Part shown: in pieces, positions 17,995-30,108 of the stretch | Layout: the number at the start of each line of letters is the position of its first letter | Numbering within the stretch: position 1 is the stretch's first letter | IMG/VR virus record: IMGVR_UViG_3300044712_001460 | Coordinates: 1-31,901 of that record | Reading direction: 5' to 3' (one strand) | DNA from: a virus | DNA length: 31,901 nt | The notes under the pieces: model-generated | Seen by the model: the letters and a program-made list of their open reading frames with translations, nothing else | What the model was told of the DNA's origin: nothing | Database searches by the model: none | Translations under genes and position numbers: made by a program

Positions 17995-18016
17995 GAGGCA
18001 GACCAAATCTTTAACT

Positions 18017-19033
18017 ATGAATGCTAAGAAACAAACAAAAATCACATTTTTAAATTGGCTTACAGAAAGACCTTTGATTTTTGTTATAATATACATTCTT
18101 TTTATTCCAACCTTTGCTCTAATATATAATCATTTGCCAGAGAATAGTTTCTTCTTATCAACGTCAAAGTATGAAATTGACAATATGAATAAAATTCTCA
18201 ATGAAATAAATGTGAACTTAAATTGCGAAATTGATAGTATTTGCAATAATCCTTCAAACAACTACAATTTCCCAAATAATGAATTTCGTAATAATTACTC
18301 CGAAATAATTATTAATGACAATAAGATTGAAATGTATTTTTTTGATGTATCAAGATTTTTTAAGATTAATCCAGATGATGAAGTAGGGAGTGGATTATTG
18401 AGTGTTTTTAATGCTATGAAAGGATCAAATGATCTTGAAACATTCCAGAAAATAAATATAAAAGAATCAGAGAGTGAATTTTTTATGGCCGACAATTTAT
18501 TAGATATTATTAGTAATCAGCTATTTACAATTGAATTAGCAAAATACAAAATTTCAAACGTTGATATTAAAACAGAATTATCTTTATATCCATACAAAGC
18601 CATTTTAGAACTGCCTAATAAACATTTTAATACTCTATCGGATAAGATAAATATGTATATTTCAACCAATCAGTTATGCTTTTTAACAGACTTGAAAAAA
18701 GATTCTATTTTTAAAAATATCATTGAAAGAGAGAATTATCTTAAAAAAGAGAAGAATGCTTTGAATCTTACATTTAATATTAGTTCTTCATTAATTAGAA
18801 AAATCGAAGAATGTATATATAATTCATCCGGTCTTTCTTATTCATCAAAATTGAATTTTACAAGAATGCTGTATTTTAGCACTGTTACTATAACAACATT
18901 GGGTTTTGGTGATATTGTTCCTTTAACAGATACAGCAAGACTTTGGACATCTCTTGAATCGATTTTGGGCGTAATAGTCATTGGTCTTTTCTTCTTTTCA
19001 TTGTCAAAGAGATTTGGGAATAAAGACTCCTGA
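18017..19033 (+). CDS. Two-TM potassium-channel-type protein with large extracytoplasmic domain
   Basis: The 338-aa protein has TM1 at about residues 20-38, an insert of about 240 residues, then a pore region. The selectivity-filter motif TLGFGD spans residues 294-299, preceded by a pore helix (MLYFSTVTIT), and TM2 covers about 309-332. TLGFGD corresponds to the TVGYGD filter of K+ channels. In a typical Kcv/KcsA-like channel TM1 and the pore helix are separated by a short turret; here a long domain replaces it and would face the periplasm. The gene is AT-rich and opposite to the head operon, so it looks like transferred cargo. Function in membrane depolarisation, superinfection exclusion or abortive defence is inference. 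Confidence 0.85.
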   Translation: MNAKKQTKITFLNWLTERPLIFVIIYILFIPTFALIYNHLPENSFFLSTSKYEIDNMNKILNEINVNLNCEIDSICNNPSNNYNFPNNEFRNNYSEIIINDNKIEMYFFDVSRFFKINPDDEVGSGLLSVFNAMKGSNDLETFQKINIKESESEFFMADNLLDIISNQLFTIELAKYKISNVDIKTELSLYPYKAILELPNKHFNTLSDKINMYISTNQLCFLTDLKKDSIFKNIIERENYLKKEKNALNLTFNISSSLIRKIEECIYNSSGLSYSSKLNFTRMLYFSTVTITTLGFGDIVPLTDTARLWTSLESILGVIVIGLFFFSLSKRFGNKDS

Positions 19034-19069
19034 TTTTTCTTATTTTTGCAGAGTCCACTACATAATTTT

Positions 19070-19159
19070 TAGCAAGCAAAAGGCTTTAAGAGCTGGCATA
19101 GGGGTGCAAGTCCTCTGGCTGCTTGCTATATGTATGTGGTGGACGGTGACCAGCTCTTA
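19070..19159 (+). ncRNA. Folded RNA-like leader element upstream of the 74-aa gene
   Basis: A perfect 10-bp stem pairs 19087-19096 (TAAGAGCTGG) with 19150-19159 (CCAGCTCTTA). Inside it 19100-19104 and 19112-19116 form a 5-bp stem (one G-T pair) with a 7-nt loop TGCAAGT, like a T-arm. Alternative pairings exist: GCAAG (19106-19110) with CTTGC (19122-19126), GTCC (19110-19113) with GGAC (19141-19144), and AGCAAGC (19071-19077) with GCTTGCT (19121-19127). The element ends 17 nt before the ATG at 19177. It could be a cis-regulatory leader or a small structured RNA. A weak TAATTTTT box at 19063-19070 might start transcription just before it. Confidence 0.45.
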
Positions 19160-19176
19160 TCTTTTAAGTCCATCAC

Positions 19177-19401
19177 ATGACAACAAAGGAACTTCGAAAG
19201 ATTTCACGTGACACGATCGAATATGAAACTTCTTTCTCGATCAATTCAATCCTTAATATTGACAGAAAAAAATCAACTGTGCAGATAGAATGCACCGATC
19301 GGTTTAATGGCCGGGTGATCCTGCAAACAAGAATTATAGAGGGAAAGATCGAAATTACTTCTCCTGGGCAGGGAACAATTCTTGTTCAAAAAATCAAATA
19401 A
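19177..19401 (+). CDS. 74-aa protein of unknown function
   Basis: A short soluble, beta-rich and slightly basic protein (MTTKELRKISRDTIEYE start) with no membrane segment. Its base composition is like the phage core rather than the AT-rich genes on either side. It follows a structured leader element and lies 53 bp upstream of the second membrane-protein gene. I do not recognise the family. It could be a regulator or a small partner of the two membrane proteins, but nothing in the sequence shows this. Confidence 0.6.
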   Translation: MTTKELRKISRDTIEYETSFSINSILNIDRKKSTVQIECTDRFNGRVILQTRIIEGKIEITSPGQGTILVQKIK

Positions 19402-19454
19402 TTAGCATCAATTATTAATTAATAGCCTATCTTAGATGCAATTAAATCAACCTC

Positions 19455-20306
19455 ATGAAAACTCTTCTGATCAAACTTAAAAAGATATTTAGTGCGCGAC
19501 AATTTTGGATAATTGTTTTTACTATCCTTTTAATATCTCTATTTATTTATCAAAAGAAGATTTTAACATCAACTCCTAAACATCCATATATTCAAATGAA
19601 GTTCAATAGAAATACATTTGTAGACTCTATGGAAATTTATGTTGATTACGTAGAAAATAAAAATTACGATTATATTTCTATTAAAGGAAAACTAATCTTC
19701 GATAATATATATAAGGATTCTTTTAGCGATTTGGAAATTACAAGCAATTTGAAAGCATCAACTATTTGGCTTAACAAAGACAATCCCAACGTTAAAATAA
19801 AAGAAATTGATATAATAAAATATAAAGATGGTCGGAAAAGTTATCCTGGGTATTCTTTTAAATTTCCAAAAAAGGAAAATTGGTTTGAAATAATATTCTA
19901 TGGATCGATATTTGAAAAAGATTGTTCTGATATAATAAGTGAAATTGGTATCATTCCTTTTGGTGGTATAATTAACTTTCATGAATATAAAAATTGGAAA
20001 TATTCGATTGCAAACACTAGAAATATAAATTTCTTTCATATTTACCCAAATCCTGATTATCAAGATGCATTCCATTTAAGATTTGAGAAACAAGAGACTA
20101 TCGATCATATATTTTGCAATGGGGTACAAGTTCAGGGGGAAGATACAAATAGAAAAAATAAAAATCAATTTATATCATTAGTAATCAGCGTAATTATAGG
20201 TGCTTTATTCTCAGGAGTTATTTCATTAATTATTGATTTGTTAATTCGAAAGGATAAAATGAAAGCTCCCGAAACAGCAAAAGCAAATCCCGAGAGCTTA
20301 GTTTAA
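19455..20306 (+). CDS. Membrane protein with two TM segments and extracytoplasmic domain
   Basis: The 283-aa protein has TM1 at about 18-35 and TM2 at about 237-262. Between them lies a beta-rich domain of about 200 residues rich in Lys, Tyr, Ile and Asn. The cytoplasmic tail is short and basic. The topology parallels the potassium-channel-type protein encoded 1.4 kb upstream, though no selectivity filter is present. The gene is AT-rich and ends 33 bp from the convergent minor head gene. No family was recognised. It may be an accessory subunit of the channel-type protein or separate cargo. Confidence 0.65.
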   Translation: MKTLLIKLKKIFSARQFWIIVFTILLISLFIYQKKILTSTPKHPYIQMKFNRNTFVDSMEIYVDYVENKNYDYISIKGKLIFDNIYKDSFSDLEITSNLKASTIWLNKDNPNVKIKEIDIIKYKDGRKSYPGYSFKFPKKENWFEIIFYGSIFEKDCSDIISEIGIIPFGGIINFHEYKNWKYSIANTRNINFFHIYPNPDYQDAFHLRFEKQETIDHIFCNGVQVQGEDTNRKNKNQFISLVISVIIGALFSGVISLIIDLLIRKDKMKAPETAKANPESLV

Positions 20307-24886: not shown

Positions 24887-25561
24887 TCAAGTATTTATTG
24901 TCAACTTTTTTGATTGTCTGCTCTCTAACATTAATAAATCAGGTTTGAAGATTTGCTCCAATTCTGTTGAAGGTTCGAACGTTGCAAAACGGTCATCTTG
25001 TGGCTGCCTGATTATCGTCCCTTTTTGGATGTCATTTATTGCCTTTGAGAATAATCTCAGCCCCATGTCCAGTAAAGTCTCTCTCCATAACTCGGATGCA
25101 GCTTCAGCCGGTTTTTTTATTTGCAATTTTGGGTCAATGAAGCACCAATCCTGATAAGCGATGTCTCCTCTGTCTAGTCCTGAATTGAGCCAATACACCG
25201 TTCCACCTGTAATTGCATCACGCATTCTAATTGCCCATTCAACTGATGATTTTCCTCGGTGCCTTGGTAGTAGAGATGGGTGGTACCCAATCCATCCAAT
25301 CTTTGCTTTATAACGGGTACGCTTCCCAATGAAGTCAAAAGAATGCGCGGCAATTCCTAGATCGATATCTTCAGGCATAGTATCAGCGTTCAGGCTCCCT
25401 GCAGGAATGATTGGAATACCATTTATTGTTGCCAACCTTCCAATATACTTATCATTTATTGGGCAACAAACGGCTGCTACCTCACATTTCAACTGAAGAC
25501 AAAGTCGTAACACTTCAGCCCCAAAATACTTCTGCCCAGCTATAATCACTCTCAAACCCAT
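24887..25561 (-). CDS. Formyltransferase-family protein (phage type)
   Basis: From the ATG at 25561 the protein is 224 aa. It contains the formyltransferase signature GYHPSLLPRHRG (92-103) and GGTVYWLNSGLDRGDI (119-134), as in GART and Met-tRNA formyltransferase. The catalytic-type His94 and Asp130 are present, but the position of the usual catalytic Asn (N-x-H-P-S-L-L-P) is Gly92. An N-terminal Rossmann-like start (LRVIIAGQKYFG) is visible. Other in-frame ATGs lie upstream at 25573 and 25603. It closes the ParB / ABC-GNAT set and precedes the small terminase gene by 4 bp. A role in nucleotide or DNA-base formylation is inferred; a housekeeping role is unlikely in this setting. Confidence 0.8.
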   Translation of the reverse strand: MGLRVIIAGQKYFGAEVLRLCLQLKCEVAAVCCPINDKYIGRLATINGIPIIPAGSLNADTMPEDIDLGIAAHSFDFIGKRTRYKAKIGWIGYHPSLLPRHRGKSSVEWAIRMRDAITGGTVYWLNSGLDRGDIAYQDWCFIDPKLQIKKPAEAASELWRETLLDMGLRLFSKAINDIQKGTIIRQPQDDRFATFEPSTELEQIFKPDLLMLESRQSKKLTINT

Positions 25562-25642
25562 AGTAAATTTCATAAATAGTGGGTGTACAAATACCCAATT
25601 CAACTAATGTCTTCCTAATTCTCTTTTTCAATGTTCTCATAT

Positions 25643-26056
25643 TTAACCAATATATTTAAAGCCTTGGACAGCTCTGAAATGACCACCATAACCGGTGCCC
25701 GCCCCAATATCACTACCTGCCTTTTTTAAGGACCTTTGGCTTTTTGCCTTATTACCCCCAAATAACTGTTGACTCTTTAAAATCCAATTTTTAGAATTCT
25801 TCAAGTAGCCTATCAACTGTGGATGCGAGGTGTGAAAAAGGGTCGGGAGTTTCTTTCCACATCTTCCGTTTCCTTGCTTATGATACTCGCAAACTGATTC
25901 AAGAAACTTTGTCCCACAACCCGCTCCTTGCCACTCTGGCATCACTACTAGTCTTGTGGCCCTGTAAGCATTGGCTGTAAAAAAAGGTGCTACAGCAAGA
26001 TGGCAAACAAGTTCATCATCAACGGTACCAATAAAGTATTCTGCTGCCGGTGGCAT
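25643..26056 (-). CDS. GNAT acetyltransferase-like domain, probably fused to the ABC ATPase by -1 frameshift
   Basis: The 137-aa ATG frame has GNAT motif A, RLVVMPEWQGAGCGTKFLES (the Q-x-x-G-x-G type acetyl-CoA loop), and a C-terminal GGHFRAVQGFKYIG. In the same frame, upstream of the ATG, the sequence continues as coding: KFELEIRKVDQTYWHHFKP and HYYLDLP precede the ATG. This frame is open only from just after a TGA at about 26168-26170 and is exactly -1 relative to the ABC ATPase. Slippage at the A7 run (26158-26164) would give a 372-aa ABC-GNAT protein. I recall single-chain ABC-GNAT proteins from other phages and mobile elements. A separate start at 26056 would lack the first part of the fold. 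Confidence 0.8.
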   Translation of the reverse strand: MPPAAEYFIGTVDDELVCHLAVAPFFTANAYRATRLVVMPEWQGAGCGTKFLESVCEYHKQGNGRCGKKLPTLFHTSHPQLIGYLKNSKNWILKSQQLFGGNKAKSQRSLKKAGSDIGAGTGYGGHFRAVQGFKYIG

Positions 26057-26064
26057 GGGTAAGT

Positions 26065-26760
26065 CTAAATAATAATGTGGTTTAAAATGGTGCCAGTAAG
26101 TTTGATCGACCTTCCTAATTTCCAGCTCGAACTTCGGTCTTGGCTCAAGCTGGAATCTTTTTTTAATTCACCTGTTCCGGTGTCCAATACCCAATCGGGT
26201 TGGAGCCATTCGACAATATCGTAGTGGCATGATAAAAGAACTACCCTTTTACCCTTGTTCCTTCGCCACCCCTTGGAGAAAGCCATTGCGCCAATCTTAG
26301 CAATTTGCCTATCTATTACGGATGTGAACTCATCAACAATAACATCATCTCCTCCCTCACAAATTAATCGTGCTAACCCGGCCCGGAACTGTTGACCATT
26401 ACTTAAAGCCTTAAATGGTCTTAACCATGCAGGAACATCGCCTAACCCAACATTGGCCAATGATCCTGTCACGATATCAAAATCACACCCAGGAGCAATG
26501 GCTTCAACAATTGGCATATTGTCTGGCCATCCTGAATAAAGATCCACGATCTTACCTCCTCCAAATAAATTTCGTCCAATGGTTGTTTTTCCGCTTCCTG
26601 ATGGTCCAACGATAAGTCCAATTTGCCAATCTGAATCCTCGACCGGAAGGTTTACTTTCAACTCAAACGAATTTCCTTTCTCGGCGTTAAAGAGGCTTTT
26701 CACCCTCGCAGCCCTGTATGAATTGAAATCATCACAGGAATTCATGACATCAATTATCAT
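26065..26760 (-). CDS. ABC-type ATPase, N-terminal part of a probable ABC-GNAT fusion
   Basis: The 231-aa frame has Walker A GPSGSGKTT (52-60), signature LSNGQQFRAGLARL (119-132), Walker B VIVDE (140-144, Asp143 and catalytic Glu144) and an H-loop His179. It has no membrane segments and no transporter gene nearby, so a soluble ATPase is likely. After Lys201 the zero frame runs on for 30 residues of low-quality sequence (DSSLSQDRSSSWKLG...) and stops, while the -1 frame joins the GNAT domain. It overlaps the ParB-like stop by 4 bp (ATGA). In phages this pairing with a GNAT and a ParB-like protein suggests DNA modification, which is inference. Confidence 0.85.
   Translation of the reverse strand: MIIDVMNSCDDFNSYRAARVKSLFNAEKGNSFELKVNLPVEDSDWQIGLIVGPSGSGKTTIGRNLFGGGKIVDLYSGWPDNMPIVEAIAPGCDFDIVTGSLANVGLGDVPAWLRPFKALSNGQQFRAGLARLICEGGDDVIVDEFTSVIDRQIAKIGAMAFSKGWRRNKGKRVVLLSCHYDIVEWLQPDWVLDTGTGELKKDSSLSQDRSSSWKLGRSIKLTGTILNHIII
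26120..26164 (-). other. Programmed -1 frameshift signal: slippery A7 and stem-loop
   Basis: On the minus strand TTA AAA AAA GAT contains A_AAA_AAA in the right phase (complement of 26158-26164). Two nt later an 11-bp stem (one G-T pair) forms between the complements of 26145-26155 and 26120-26130, with a 14-nt loop. This resembles the dnaX-type frameshift signal, although the spacer is shorter than the usual 5-9 nt unless the first pairs open. Confidence 0.7.
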
Positions 26761-27281
26761 ACAACTACTACTTTACAGTTATAACCTTCTTTTGTCAGCC
26801 TATTAAATACGGCTTCCTGATCATCCGCTGAATCACACATCACAATTATCCCAAACTTGTTCTCCGCTTTTATTCCTTCATCAGCAAATGGATCGTTTCC
26901 AACAGGAGATTCTTTATCAAAAGAAACATCAAAGCCCCATGCATCAAGGTCTAATATGTCCATGTCCTCAAGAAGTAAATCCTGATCAAATAAGGATGTG
27001 TCAGTGGTGTGGTTGTCAGCAAAAGCAAGTTTTTGCCTTCTTGGATCATCTGGGGAAAGGTCACGTCTTTTTACAGCGATTAGTTCATCACCGTCTGTTT
27101 CAATTATCCGTATTGGCTTATCCCCCCATTCCCCAAAGACGCCGTTCCCAGCAATAATTCTCCCTGAGTTATCAAGTAATATGGAGCGCCCGGCTCCAAG
27201 TTCATCTAAAGATTTTTGAATTAATGACTTGTTCTTGTCATCATGAATTCGGTAGTTCCTCTCGTCCTTTACAATTTCCAT
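26757..27281 (-). CDS. ParB-like nuclease-domain protein
   Basis: The 174-aa protein has a ParB N-terminal domain pattern: ERNYRIHDDKNKSLIQKSL (7-25), GRIIAGNG (box II-like GN, about 40-47) and LAFADNHTTDT near residue 85-95. A C-terminal stretch of about 35 residues (KFGIIVMCDSADDQEAVF...) forms a small separate domain. ParB-like proteins of this kind, here without a partner ParA, occur with DNA-modification genes in phages. It overlaps the upstream 144-aa gene by 41 bp, and its stop overlaps the ABC ATPase start by 4 bp. Confidence 0.78.
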   Translation of the reverse strand: MEIVKDERNYRIHDDKNKSLIQKSLDELGAGRSILLDNSGRIIAGNGVFGEWGDKPIRIIETDGDELIAVKRRDLSPDDPRRQKLAFADNHTTDTSLFDQDLLLEDMDILDLDAWGFDVSFDKESPVGNDPFADEGIKAENKFGIIVMCDSADDQEAVFNRLTKEGYNCKVVVV

Positions 27282-27677: not shown

Positions 27678-28568
27678 TTAAAAATTATTAAATATTTCTC
27701 CATCAGTATATTTCAAAATAATTTTATTCCTAGAAATTACCTCTTTTATTGATTCAATGCTACTTAGGCTTGCTCTTTCCAAATATTTACTTTCCTCACT
27801 TATGTAACTCCATGAAAAATAATTAACTTTTCTTTGAATACTATCTGAAATAATTGGATCATTGTATTTAAAAAAAATGACAAGATAACCTTTTGGCAAA
27901 TCTTTCATTTCCTTTATATGTTCATGAATTGGAACTTTTAATTCAATCATATTTTCCTTTCCCCCCTCAAATCCACCTTTAAAATCTAGCAAAAGATCTC
28001 TGATTTCAATTAGCATATCATTATTTAAAACAAAATAATAAATTCCCATCTGTATGTTTTGAGCTCTCCTACCATCTTGTTCTAAAATAATTTGGATTTT
28101 ATAGATACTCTCATATTTTACCCATTTAGGTGTATCAAATATTAATAAATTGGATAAATCTTTATATATATCTACCTCAAGATTATTATTTATCTTATTT
28201 AAATAATTTGAAAGTGAGTCAAATTTTGAATTCTGAATGATCCTTTTATCTAATAATTCCAAAGTCTTGAGACTGACTGAATCTAACTTTTTATTAATGC
28301 TATCAACATCTTGTATTTTTTTTTCAAGATCCTTAATTACCTCTTCAGTGCTTGCTGTTTTTATTCCAATTTCTTTTTGCAATGAATCCCTGATAGTTTG
28401 TTTCTCTTCATCATCCTTAAATACATAAATGTTCATTATTATTGAACACGTTACAAGAAACAGGAATAGATAACCAACCCAATTAAGTTTATTTTTATCA
28501 TTCTTTATTTTAAAGAAAATAGGGATTGAGCCAATCACGATTGTAAACACGATACTAGCAACTTCCAT
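27678..28568 (-). CDS. Membrane-anchored coiled-coil protein, partner of the AbiC-like gene
   Basis: The 296-aa protein has two N-terminal membrane segments (about 5-20 and 30-50), a coiled-coil region (about 60-125) and a C-terminal domain of alternating strands. It is AT-rich like its neighbour and overlaps the AbiC-like stop by 14 bp, so the two are translated together. I do not recognise a family. The layout suggests a membrane sensor or effector acting with the AbiC-like protein. Confidence 0.65.
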   Translation of the reverse strand: MEVASIVFTIVIGSIPIFFKIKNDKNKLNWVGYLFLFLVTCSIIMNIYVFKDDEEKQTIRDSLQKEIGIKTASTEEVIKDLEKKIQDVDSINKKLDSVSLKTLELLDKRIIQNSKFDSLSNYLNKINNNLEVDIYKDLSNLLIFDTPKWVKYESIYKIQIILEQDGRRAQNIQMGIYYFVLNNDMLIEIRDLLLDFKGGFEGGKENMIELKVPIHEHIKEMKDLPKGYLVIFFKYNDPIISDSIQRKVNYFSWSYISEESKYLERASLSSIESIKEVISRNKIILKYTDGEIFNNF

Positions 28569-29709
28569 TTTCGATTAATTTGTTACGATTATTTTTTTCT
28601 TGAAATTCAAATAATAAATCTTTATCCTCTTTACCTGCTTCTTTTCTGTAACTTTCAATTTTAAAAGCGTCAATTTCTTCTAAAATGAAATCCTTCAACA
28701 ATAATTTTTGAGGTATATTATGGATCATTCTATAATCTGTAAAAAACTTATTTGTCTCATCCTCCCACGCATTACCATAACCAGATTTCCAATTGTAGAA
28801 AAGCAGTTCTTGTTCTTGGTTAGAAAGTTGTGCCCTAAGTATCCGAAGATAATTTCTTTTCATTTCATAGGTGAAATTATCATCTTCAGGTCTGTTAGCA
28901 ATATATTTCACCATTTGAAATAGGTGTCTGTAATAATGGCCTAATTGATGACTATGTCCAATAAATAAATCGAAATTTAAAAGATCCAATTTCTCCATCG
29001 CAGTATAAATATTTAATTCTAATGGAATTTGGAAATCTTTATTGCTCTCATTTTTCCAATTCAACTTAAATTTACCTAACTCATAATACAAAGATTCATA
29101 AATTTCAAATCTTTCATCTTGTTTTCCTAGCTGGTTTATCAATTCATTATGATCCCAAATTCCATTAAAAAATATATCATAACTCTTTGGTAAATCACCA
29201 GATATCGATTTGTTATTCCTAATATAAAAACTTTTGACTACAATATAGGTTGCATGCAATTCACATAAAAAATACTTAAATGCTTCTTTCCCAACAATCG
29301 TTTTACCGTCATTTTTAGTCAATGATATTTCATTGACATTCTCTTTGTGTAATTTTAACATTTCATAAAACTGATTCTCTAATCTATTGGAATCAAGTTC
29401 TAACCTAAAATTCTTAATTTGCTGTTGGTTTGCTCGAAATTGAACGTAAAATGCTAAGAATGTCAAGCAAACACCGGCAATGCCAATGAATGGACTCATC
29501 AATCCTCCGATTGTATCACCAATGTATCCAGTGCTATTATCAAAGCCCACATTCTTAATTGACAAAAAAGAAAAAACGAAAGGTGATAAAAAAGAAAAAG
29601 CACAAAATATAAATGCAATGCCCAATAATATTCTTCCAGTCCAGCCTAATTCAGAAAAAAGGTTGAATTTCTGTTGAAATTTATTCTTCACGGATTCATT
29701 CTTAGTCAT
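28555..29709 (-). CDS. AbiC-like putative phage abortive-infection protein (putAbiC family)
   Basis: From the ATG at 29709 the protein is 384 aa (the longer frame begins with a GTG at 29757). Two N-terminal membrane segments (about 28-50 and 66-88) are followed by a helical domain with putAbiC motifs: NQFYEMLKLHKENVNEI, LGHYYRHLFQMVKYI (about 270) and YLRILRAQLSNQEQELLFYN (about 300). The family includes lactococcal AbiC, which aborts phage infection. It is AT-rich cargo between phage genes. It forms an overlapping pair with the membrane coiled-coil gene. The mechanism is unknown. Confidence 0.82.
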   Translation of the reverse strand: MTKNESVKNKFQQKFNLFSELGWTGRILLGIAFIFCAFSFLSPFVFSFLSIKNVGFDNSTGYIGDTIGGLMSPFIGIAGVCLTFLAFYVQFRANQQQIKNFRLELDSNRLENQFYEMLKLHKENVNEISLTKNDGKTIVGKEAFKYFLCELHATYIVVKSFYIRNNKSISGDLPKSYDIFFNGIWDHNELINQLGKQDERFEIYESLYYELGKFKLNWKNESNKDFQIPLELNIYTAMEKLDLLNFDLFIGHSHQLGHYYRHLFQMVKYIANRPEDDNFTYEMKRNYLRILRAQLSNQEQELLFYNWKSGYGNAWEDETNKFFTDYRMIHNIPQKLLLKDFILEEIDAFKIESYRKEAGKEDKDLLFEFQEKNNRNKLIENGSC

Positions 29710-29813
29710 AGTTGGCAATCTGTTGTTTTTCAATCGTAAATATACAAAAAACCTCACTAAAAGTGGAGCTTAATACCACTAGTATTATTTGGGTTATAAA
29801 ATATGGAACTATT

Positions 29814-29840
29814 AAAAAACAAAAGGGGCTGTTAACCCCT
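29814..29840 (-). terminator. Rho-independent terminator after the small gene
   Basis: On the minus strand AGGGG, loop TTAACAG and CCCCT are followed by TTTGTTTTTTAAT (complement of 29823-29811). It insulates the gene at 29905-30108 from the AbiC-like cargo. Confidence 0.75.
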
Positions 29841-29842
29841 CA

Positions 29843-29867
29843 GGTGGGTTCAGGACAGTTGCCCACC
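29843..29867 (-). other. Second hairpin next to the terminator
   Basis: GGTGGG (29843-29848) pairs with CCCACC (29862-29867) around a 13-nt loop, just upstream of the terminator on the minus strand. It may stabilise the transcript 3' end. Confidence 0.45.
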
Positions 29868-29904
29868 CCAAACCAACACTAATGTATAACTTTTTTAATA
29901 AAAG

Positions 29905-30108
29905 TCAATGCTTAACAAGAACAGCGGTTACAACAGCATTAAGCTGAACGCTGCCGCTTGCTGACTTTATTTCAACAACAGATTGCTCTAGGCTTTTAAC
30001 TTCAAAGCCATTTGCTAATTCTGGTTGAAATCCAGAGCCGCTTAAAAAATCAGCATTTCCTATCAACGTATTAAGCGGAACGATAACGGTTTTAATTTTT
30101 TGAATCAT
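29905..30108 (-). CDS. Small protein of unknown function (67 aa)
   Basis: I chose the ATG at 30108 (MIQKIKTVIVPLNTL); the frame is open to 30150 but the longer start adds a hydrophobic stretch overlapping the likely leader. The 67-aa protein is soluble and beta-rich (VVEIKSASGSVQLNAVV near the end). It is isolated: 175-217 bp from the pcfJ stop upstream and followed by two hairpins including a terminator. This suggests a separate, well-expressed transcript. No family was recognised. Confidence 0.6.
   Translation of the reverse strand: MIQKIKTVIVPLNTLIGNADFLSGSGFQPELANGFEVKSLEQSVVEIKSASGSVQLNAVVTAVLVKH

Follow-up and report, generated by a model that had tools for sequence, protein, structure and literature searches.

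The ABC ATPase gene described here lies in a 31.9-kb virus record with a tailed-phage gene set (the window, meaning the whole stretch of DNA analysed) and is very likely expressed by programmed -1 frameshifting, a conclusion that rests on comparative evidence only, no product having been observed. A first-pass annotation, made from sequence alone, had proposed that such a frameshift fuses the ATPase to a GNAT domain; comparison with relatives supports this proposal and makes it one corner of a wider picture, in which hundreds of relatives in unrelated phages appear likely, as inferred from comparison, to make the same two products. The programmed -1 split exceeds what chance would give, because the split and its A-run recur across relatives, the hairpin behind the run covaries, and the overlap between the two frames varies as GNAT-coding sequence.

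The minus strand of the window encodes a ParB-like protein, the ABC ATPase, the GNAT half in the -1 frame, a formyltransferase-like protein and terminase genes. The ATPase start overlaps the stop of the ParB-like gene (ATGA), whose product (26757..27281, minus strand, by profile match) ends in a C-terminal domain of about 40 aa (phrog_28816). The downstream formyltransferase-like gene (24887..25603, minus strand; PF00551, 4.1e-15) adjoins the ABC-GNAT gene also in Porphyromonas phages and Komp_PAO1_1, and ParB-like neighbours are frequent beside the ABC-GNAT genes of relatives, some records calling them DNA modification methylase. The approximately 40-aa domain is fused to the ParB-like C-terminus in the window, while a similar protein occurs elsewhere as a separate small ORF, which overlaps the ABC start in Porphyromonas phages and Komp_PAO1_1 (L072:3876-4004; L073:3855-4004) and bears the label 'acr candidate' in the Porphyromonas phages. 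A Com-like regulator upstream, as in phage Mu, was considered for these ORFs and rejected: at 42-49 aa they lack zinc-finger cysteines, and they resemble instead the C-terminal part of the window's ParB-like protein. Elsewhere in the window, two islands of 28-29% GC (18000-20300 and 28000-30000) lie within a phage of 40% GC, the first holding plus-strand ORFs of unknown function (18017-19033 and 19455-20306) that run opposite to the main gene direction.

Read in the 0 frame, the ABC ATPase (26065..26760, minus strand; 231 aa; PF00005, 1.4e-6; phrog_11143, 1.4e-82) carries Walker A (GPSGSGKTT), signature (LSNGQQ) and Walker B (VIVDEF) motifs and continues as a 30-codon tail past the slip site to a TAG at 26065..26067 (minus strand), the same place as the +1-frame stop of continuous relatives. 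The -1 frame is closed by a TGA at 26168-26170 and open from 26167 to a stop at 25643-25645, giving a GNAT acyltransferase half of 174 codons from TGA to stop (25643..26167, minus strand; PF13508, 3.4e-5; phrog_11143, 6.4e-36). An AlphaFold2 model of this half (mean pLDDT 85.9) finds GNAT structures among its Foldseek matches and places strand 1 and helix 1 of the fold before the window's ATG. The ORF counted from the first ATG (25643..26056, minus strand) misses both elements, so the ATG at 26056 is probably not the real GNAT start. Joining ATPase codons 1-201 to the GNAT half gives a conceptual fusion of 372 aa; phrog_11143 matches both halves of the gene, and matches to phage records run unbroken across residues 1-372. 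The first-pass annotation had given these ATPase and GNAT coordinates, the -1 relation and frame closure, the phase of an A7 run, the 372-aa fusion length and the existence of one-chain ABC-GNAT proteins in other phages, and all of these held, the last through the phrog_11143 match to both halves and the phage matches over 1-372.

The junction reads ...GAA TTA AAA AAA GAT, which sets an A_AAA_AAA heptamer followed by G (26158..26164, minus strand) in 0-frame phase (TTA_AAA_AAA) within the overlap of both frames; the corresponding runs in relatives extend from A6G to A11. After a -1 slip, base 26158 would be read twice. A7 runs are common, with 14 on the window's minus strand, and by itself such a run proves nothing. 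Behind it lies a hairpin (26120..26155, minus strand; RNAfold -19.3 kcal/mol, z -4.0) with a 13-bp stem (26143-26155 with 26120-26132) and a 10-nt loop, the presumed stimulator of the -1 slip, a role inferred from comparison without reporter data. The earlier description of this structure as an 11-bp stem with a 14-nt loop failed in detail. Its placement 2 nt after the A7 run held for the base of the window's full stem; the portion common to relatives begins 5 nt past the run.

Relatives collected from IMG/VR, phage records and GTDB genomes comprised 101 split and 138 continuous loci, duplicates included; they are not independent of each other, and locus counts overstate the number of independent cases. 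Approximately 70 distinct Bacteroidota phage or prophage junctions, drawn from finished genomes and independent contigs and with ATPase identities of 60-89%, keep the -1 split at an A-run (A6G, A7, A9, A10 or A11), a handful being off-frame. As a group, the A7 and A6G relatives have the strongest hairpins. In ten A7 relatives, 93% of hairpin cells are paired and three pairs have changed on both sides, that is, they covary; when one arm is slid by 1-3 nt as a control, pairing falls to 9-52%. No stem was found at the junction of A9-A11 relatives (mean z about -0.4 to -0.7). From this comparison, we infer that the A6G/A7 set fits ribosomal slipping aided by structure; the A9-A11 set may fit self-sufficient slipping, perhaps by RNA polymerase.

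Several split loci depart from this pattern. Three have A-runs in a +1 rather than a -1 relation (L109, A11; L124, A8; L230, A11), possibly through mutation, error or a slippage that tolerates any frame. In Tenacibaculum phage pT24 (L272), annotated with two ABC genes, an in-frame stop cuts the GNAT half and the same frame then resumes, which could reflect error, decay or readthrough. Firmicutes phages show a further -1 split, with GTT_TTT_C at most junctions; for example, Streptococcus and Lactococcus phages (L077-L083, L252-L264) have ABC and GNAT in a -1 split with a conserved CAG_GTT_TTT_C, where the candidate sites, G_GTT_TTT and in some cases A_GTT_TTT, are leads only. Oenococcus phage Vinitor-27 is split at a different junction, and Enterococcus phage 9184 (L084) has GCA_AAA_AAG.

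The upstream part of the GNAT frame varies as protein-coding sequence on both sides of the 0-frame stop, as comparison shows. Counted by GNAT-frame codon position, changes in the overlap number 17649 at position 3, 13691 at position 1 and 9677 at position 2; GNAT-frame third positions are the second positions of the 0 frame, and the overlap pattern is the opposite of that of 0-frame coding. Moreover, a GNAT-frame ATG lies near the start of that frame in only 24 of 71 split relatives, and at the window's own position (26056) in 18 of 71. In the majority of split genes there is no ATG from which reinitiation could start.

Continuous relatives carry a different layout at the same spot, found while seeking A6 and A8 controls among them: AGGGGG or GGAGG, 3 nt, then CTT followed by CGG, TGG, CGA or CAA. 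When synonymous codons were redrawn in 121 distinct continuous loci according to each gene's own usage, CTT was expected at the site in 23.9 loci and observed in 104, the SD-like element in 12.7 and observed in 61, an open +1 frame in 72.5 and observed in all 121, and a +1 stop at the conserved place in 51.3 and observed in 113. The +1 frame was both open and stopped at that place in 113 of 121 loci (32.4 expected), while the control -1 frame was open more rarely than expected (16 against 29.2). Since resampling fails to give the +1 layout, protein conservation and codon usage alone do not account for it; the procedure controls for these two factors and not for phylogeny. In a set of 66 non-Bacteroidales genes, each with about 370 in-frame positions, the segment lying 3 nt ahead of CTT is the best anti-SD partner of all in 42 and ranks within the top five in 59. 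The +1 tail spans 25-27 codons in 102 of 104 loci. Furthermore, synonymous identity relative to expectation lies at 0.9-1.3 along the gene, rises to 1.3-2.0 across the overlap and returns to baseline past the stop. The SD and CTT codons reach peaks of 3-5, as does the codon bearing the stop in Bacteroidales. The in-frame stop that follows CTT in RF2-type sites is absent from the continuous relatives, which have the sense codons CGG, TGG, CGA and CAA instead. A +1 slip here would therefore lack one known strong stimulator and would resemble RF2 slipping, not RF2 autoregulation. Named phages with the +1 site include Leptospira phage LE4 (AGGAGG TTG CTT TGG), Pseudoalteromonas phage SL25 (AGGGGG AGT CTT AGG C), Pasteurella phage Pmp13 and Gordonia phages NHagos and Yago84. 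Two continuous IMG/VR loci (L048 and L051) read AGG GGG GTA G, where a +1 slip at GGG would hit a stop immediately and give an ATPase without a tail.

The signal ahead of CTT differs between host groups. Continuous relatives from Bacteroidales have no SD at the site; in its place stands a hairpin, with a stem mostly of 5-7 bp, that ends exactly 5 nt before CTT. Nine distinct covarying arm pairs are found (CACGC/GCGTG, CACGG/CCGTG, CGCGG/CCGCG, CTCGC/GCGAG and others), and none of 2000 shuffles matched the pairing. SD and hairpin are mutually exclusive, with 61 loci having the SD only, 38 the hairpin only, 7 neither and none both. Resampling predicts 3.6 hairpins in the 38 hairpin-only loci; these loci were chosen for having a hairpin, so that more weight rests on the exclusion and on the covarying arms. 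Hosts of SD sites belong to Pseudomonadota, Planctomycetota, Verrucomicrobiota and Thermodesulfobacteriota, hosts of hairpin sites are mainly Bacteroidales, and hosts of A-run -1 sites are mainly Flavobacteriales, with Chitinophagales. Bacteroidia ribosomes conceal their anti-SD (PMC8710568). A hidden anti-SD does not forbid SD-type slipping, since prfB keeps an SD-type +1 site in most Bacteroidia (PMC8710568). An upstream hairpin can stand in for the SD in +1 slipping by 70S ribosomes in vitro (PMC6321510). A bolder reading, which we consider likely as a joint claim, is that one phage family keeps two products while the direction of recoding and its signal follow the host ribosome: SD-using hosts would have +1 at CTT with SD:anti-SD pairing, Bacteroidales, with their hidden anti-SD, would have +1 at CTT with a hairpin in the mRNA, and Flavobacteriales and their relatives would shift -1 on an A-run. 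The link between recoding signals and host ribosomes is an inference from comparison.

These patterns recurred in 95 distinct junctions that had not been used in forming the idea, taken from two more IMG/VR scans and a few genome loci. All 10 split junctions were in a -1 relation, at A7, A9 or A10. CTT was present in 74 of 85 continuous junctions, of which 65 had the SD only, 7 the hairpin only, 2 neither and none both, with tails of 25-27 codons in 72 of the 74. The 11 without CTT mostly had GTT C behind GGGGG, and every one had an open tail and a stop. A tree of 137 ATPase sequences places the A-run loci together with the hairpin +1 loci in a single Bacteroidota group, and A-run length has changed at least nine times. 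A nested reversal, with +1 arising inside a -1 clade, was seen in a quick tree and could not be secured; under an AU test a single A-run clade is not rejected, and constraining the tree to contain it gave a better score. At least one switch of direction is needed within the core clade. Sampling of about 400 Bacteroidota and about 400 Pseudomonadota genomes gave only three new genes, indicating that the family is rare in genomes.

The frames, the sites and their conservation, the covariation and the dual coding are shown by these comparisons. The slipping itself and its efficiency are inferred, with no mass spectrometry, ribosome profiling or reporter evidence behind the frameshift. In the proposed mechanism, most ribosomes would read through the A7 run and stop at 26065-26067 to give the 231-aa ABC ATPase, while a fraction, delayed by the hairpin, would slip back one base on A_AAA_AAA and make the 372-aa ATPase-acetyltransferase. 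Slipping would serve to set the ratio of ATPase alone to fusion, a purpose that is likewise inferred, and this ratio may let an ABC dimer form with fewer than two GNAT arms or may limit the acyltransferase dose. The first-pass suggestion that non-slipping ribosomes make the ATPase alone, in a fixed ratio of the two products, is kept as an inference. Related phages would reach the same pair through a longer A-run, possibly by RNA polymerase slippage, and continuous relatives would obtain the short form by an RF2-like +1 slip at CTT. Split genes would thus have the ATPase as default and the fusion by slipping, and continuous genes the fusion as default and the ATPase by slipping.

Some observations count against the -1 mechanism: the stem is missing from A9-A11 relatives, so that this stimulator is not shared by all; the window's full stem begins only 2 nt past the run; five A-run loci are in other frames; and in E. 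coli, A_AAA_AAG shifts more strongly than A_AAA_AAA does (PMC5009743). The closest rival, transcriptional slippage, supposes that an extra base enters the mRNA when RNA polymerase copies the A-run; ordinary translation of the altered mRNA would then give the fusion, and the same two products would arise without the ribosome slipping. Relatives often have A9-A11 without a stem, the repeated changes in run length on the tree are in keeping with it, off-frame A-run loci (L130, L195 and L230) suit varying base additions, and slippage on runs of 9 A is documented (PMC5009743). It is nonetheless unlikely for the window, which has only A7 together with a covarying hairpin at ribosomal spacing that a polymerase does not need, and the strongest hairpins sit in the A6G and A7 group. 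The original proposal is accordingly refined in that A9-A11 relatives may use transcriptional slippage and that the one-chain homologues, on comparative evidence, themselves appear recoded by +1 slipping.

Sequencing error or a decaying gene, meaning either that the split is an artefact in a continuous gene or that the split copy is dead, can be all but excluded. A-runs are prone to length errors, and L124 and L109 look off-frame; however, the -1 split recurs in about 70 distinct junctions and 10 new ones, which refutes error as a general explanation, and selection acts on the GNAT half as a protein both before and after the 0-frame stop. The first-pass annotation had named A6 or A8 with a continuous gene in relatives as its refuting case; this was met only by a few odd loci (L130 and L195, continuous; L124, L109 and L230, in a +1 relation) and not by the body of relatives, while its conservation check was passed, the A-run being kept wherever the frames are split in Bacteroidota and the stem being conserved and covarying among A7 relatives. 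Alternatively, two separate proteins could arise if GNAT translation reinitiated at the ATG at 26056 after the ATPase stop. This ATG lies 8 nt past that stop, and other ABC gene pairs use translational coupling (PMC3711429). We hold reinitiation to be very unlikely: only 18 of 71 relatives have an ATG there, a start at 26056 drops GNAT strand 1 and helix 1, and the stretch upstream of it, which one-chain relatives also have, shows conservation of the GNAT-frame protein. Programmed -1 frameshifting by the ribosome remains the preferred reading for the window.

The window gene belongs to the same protein family as the ABC ATPase-GNAT system described by Iyer, Aravind and colleagues, which is predicted to acylate DNA bases (PMC7824862); a protein cited in that review, QAX98348.1, is ASfcp2_2, found among our matches (H29/L273). 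A role of the window gene in acylating phage DNA bases is this published prediction, and the activity is inferred. Database and fold matches of the GNAT half are to generic GNAT proteins only, without a direct comparison to Mu Mom, and a PADLOC search gave weak matches. The ATPase should dimerise, as inferred from its retained catalytic motifs, and a mixture of short and fused chains would then yield dimers that carry between zero and two GNAT arms. The implication is that the ATPase-to-GNAT ratio matters for the predicted DNA-modification system. No frameshift is described in the relevant sections of PMC7824862; the open-access literature was searched, and an earlier report is not excluded. 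In hundreds of phages, gene callers and existing ABC-GNAT annotations would thus overlook one of the two inferred products. Additionally, the family offers a large natural set of RF2-like +1 sites beyond prfB and a natural covarying upstream hairpin at the SD place in hosts with a hidden anti-SD, and makes +1 slipping without SD pairing testable.

Among known recoded genes, the phage tail-assembly chaperone is likewise a conserved frameshift of tailed phages that yields a short and an extended protein, although gene and function differ; nearly all annotated frameshifted genes in PRFect's phage set are such chaperones (PMC10885494). The prfB (RF2) +1 consensus, AGGGGG, 3 nt and CTTT (PMC12421855), has a layout shared by the continuous relatives and not by the window, and the relatives differ from prfB in having no stop after CTT and no link to RF2 autoregulation, slipping giving the short product. 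The in vitro case of an upstream hairpin replacing the SD used artificial constructs (PMC6321510), whereas the Bacteroidales hairpin is natural and conserved by covariation, without activity data. A further likeness is to dnaX, which encodes tau and gamma of DNA polymerase III: as in the window gene, its two products share the ATPase part and arise by a -1 slip at an A-run with a hairpin, or by transcriptional slippage in other species, and the short and long products can exchange roles (PMC5009743). It differs in being a cellular gene for which no +1 version is described in the relevant sections of PMC5009743. According to a large survey, orthologues keep the direction of their programmed frameshifting (PMC3711429), a rule that the ABC-GNAT family breaks, both slip directions occurring within it.
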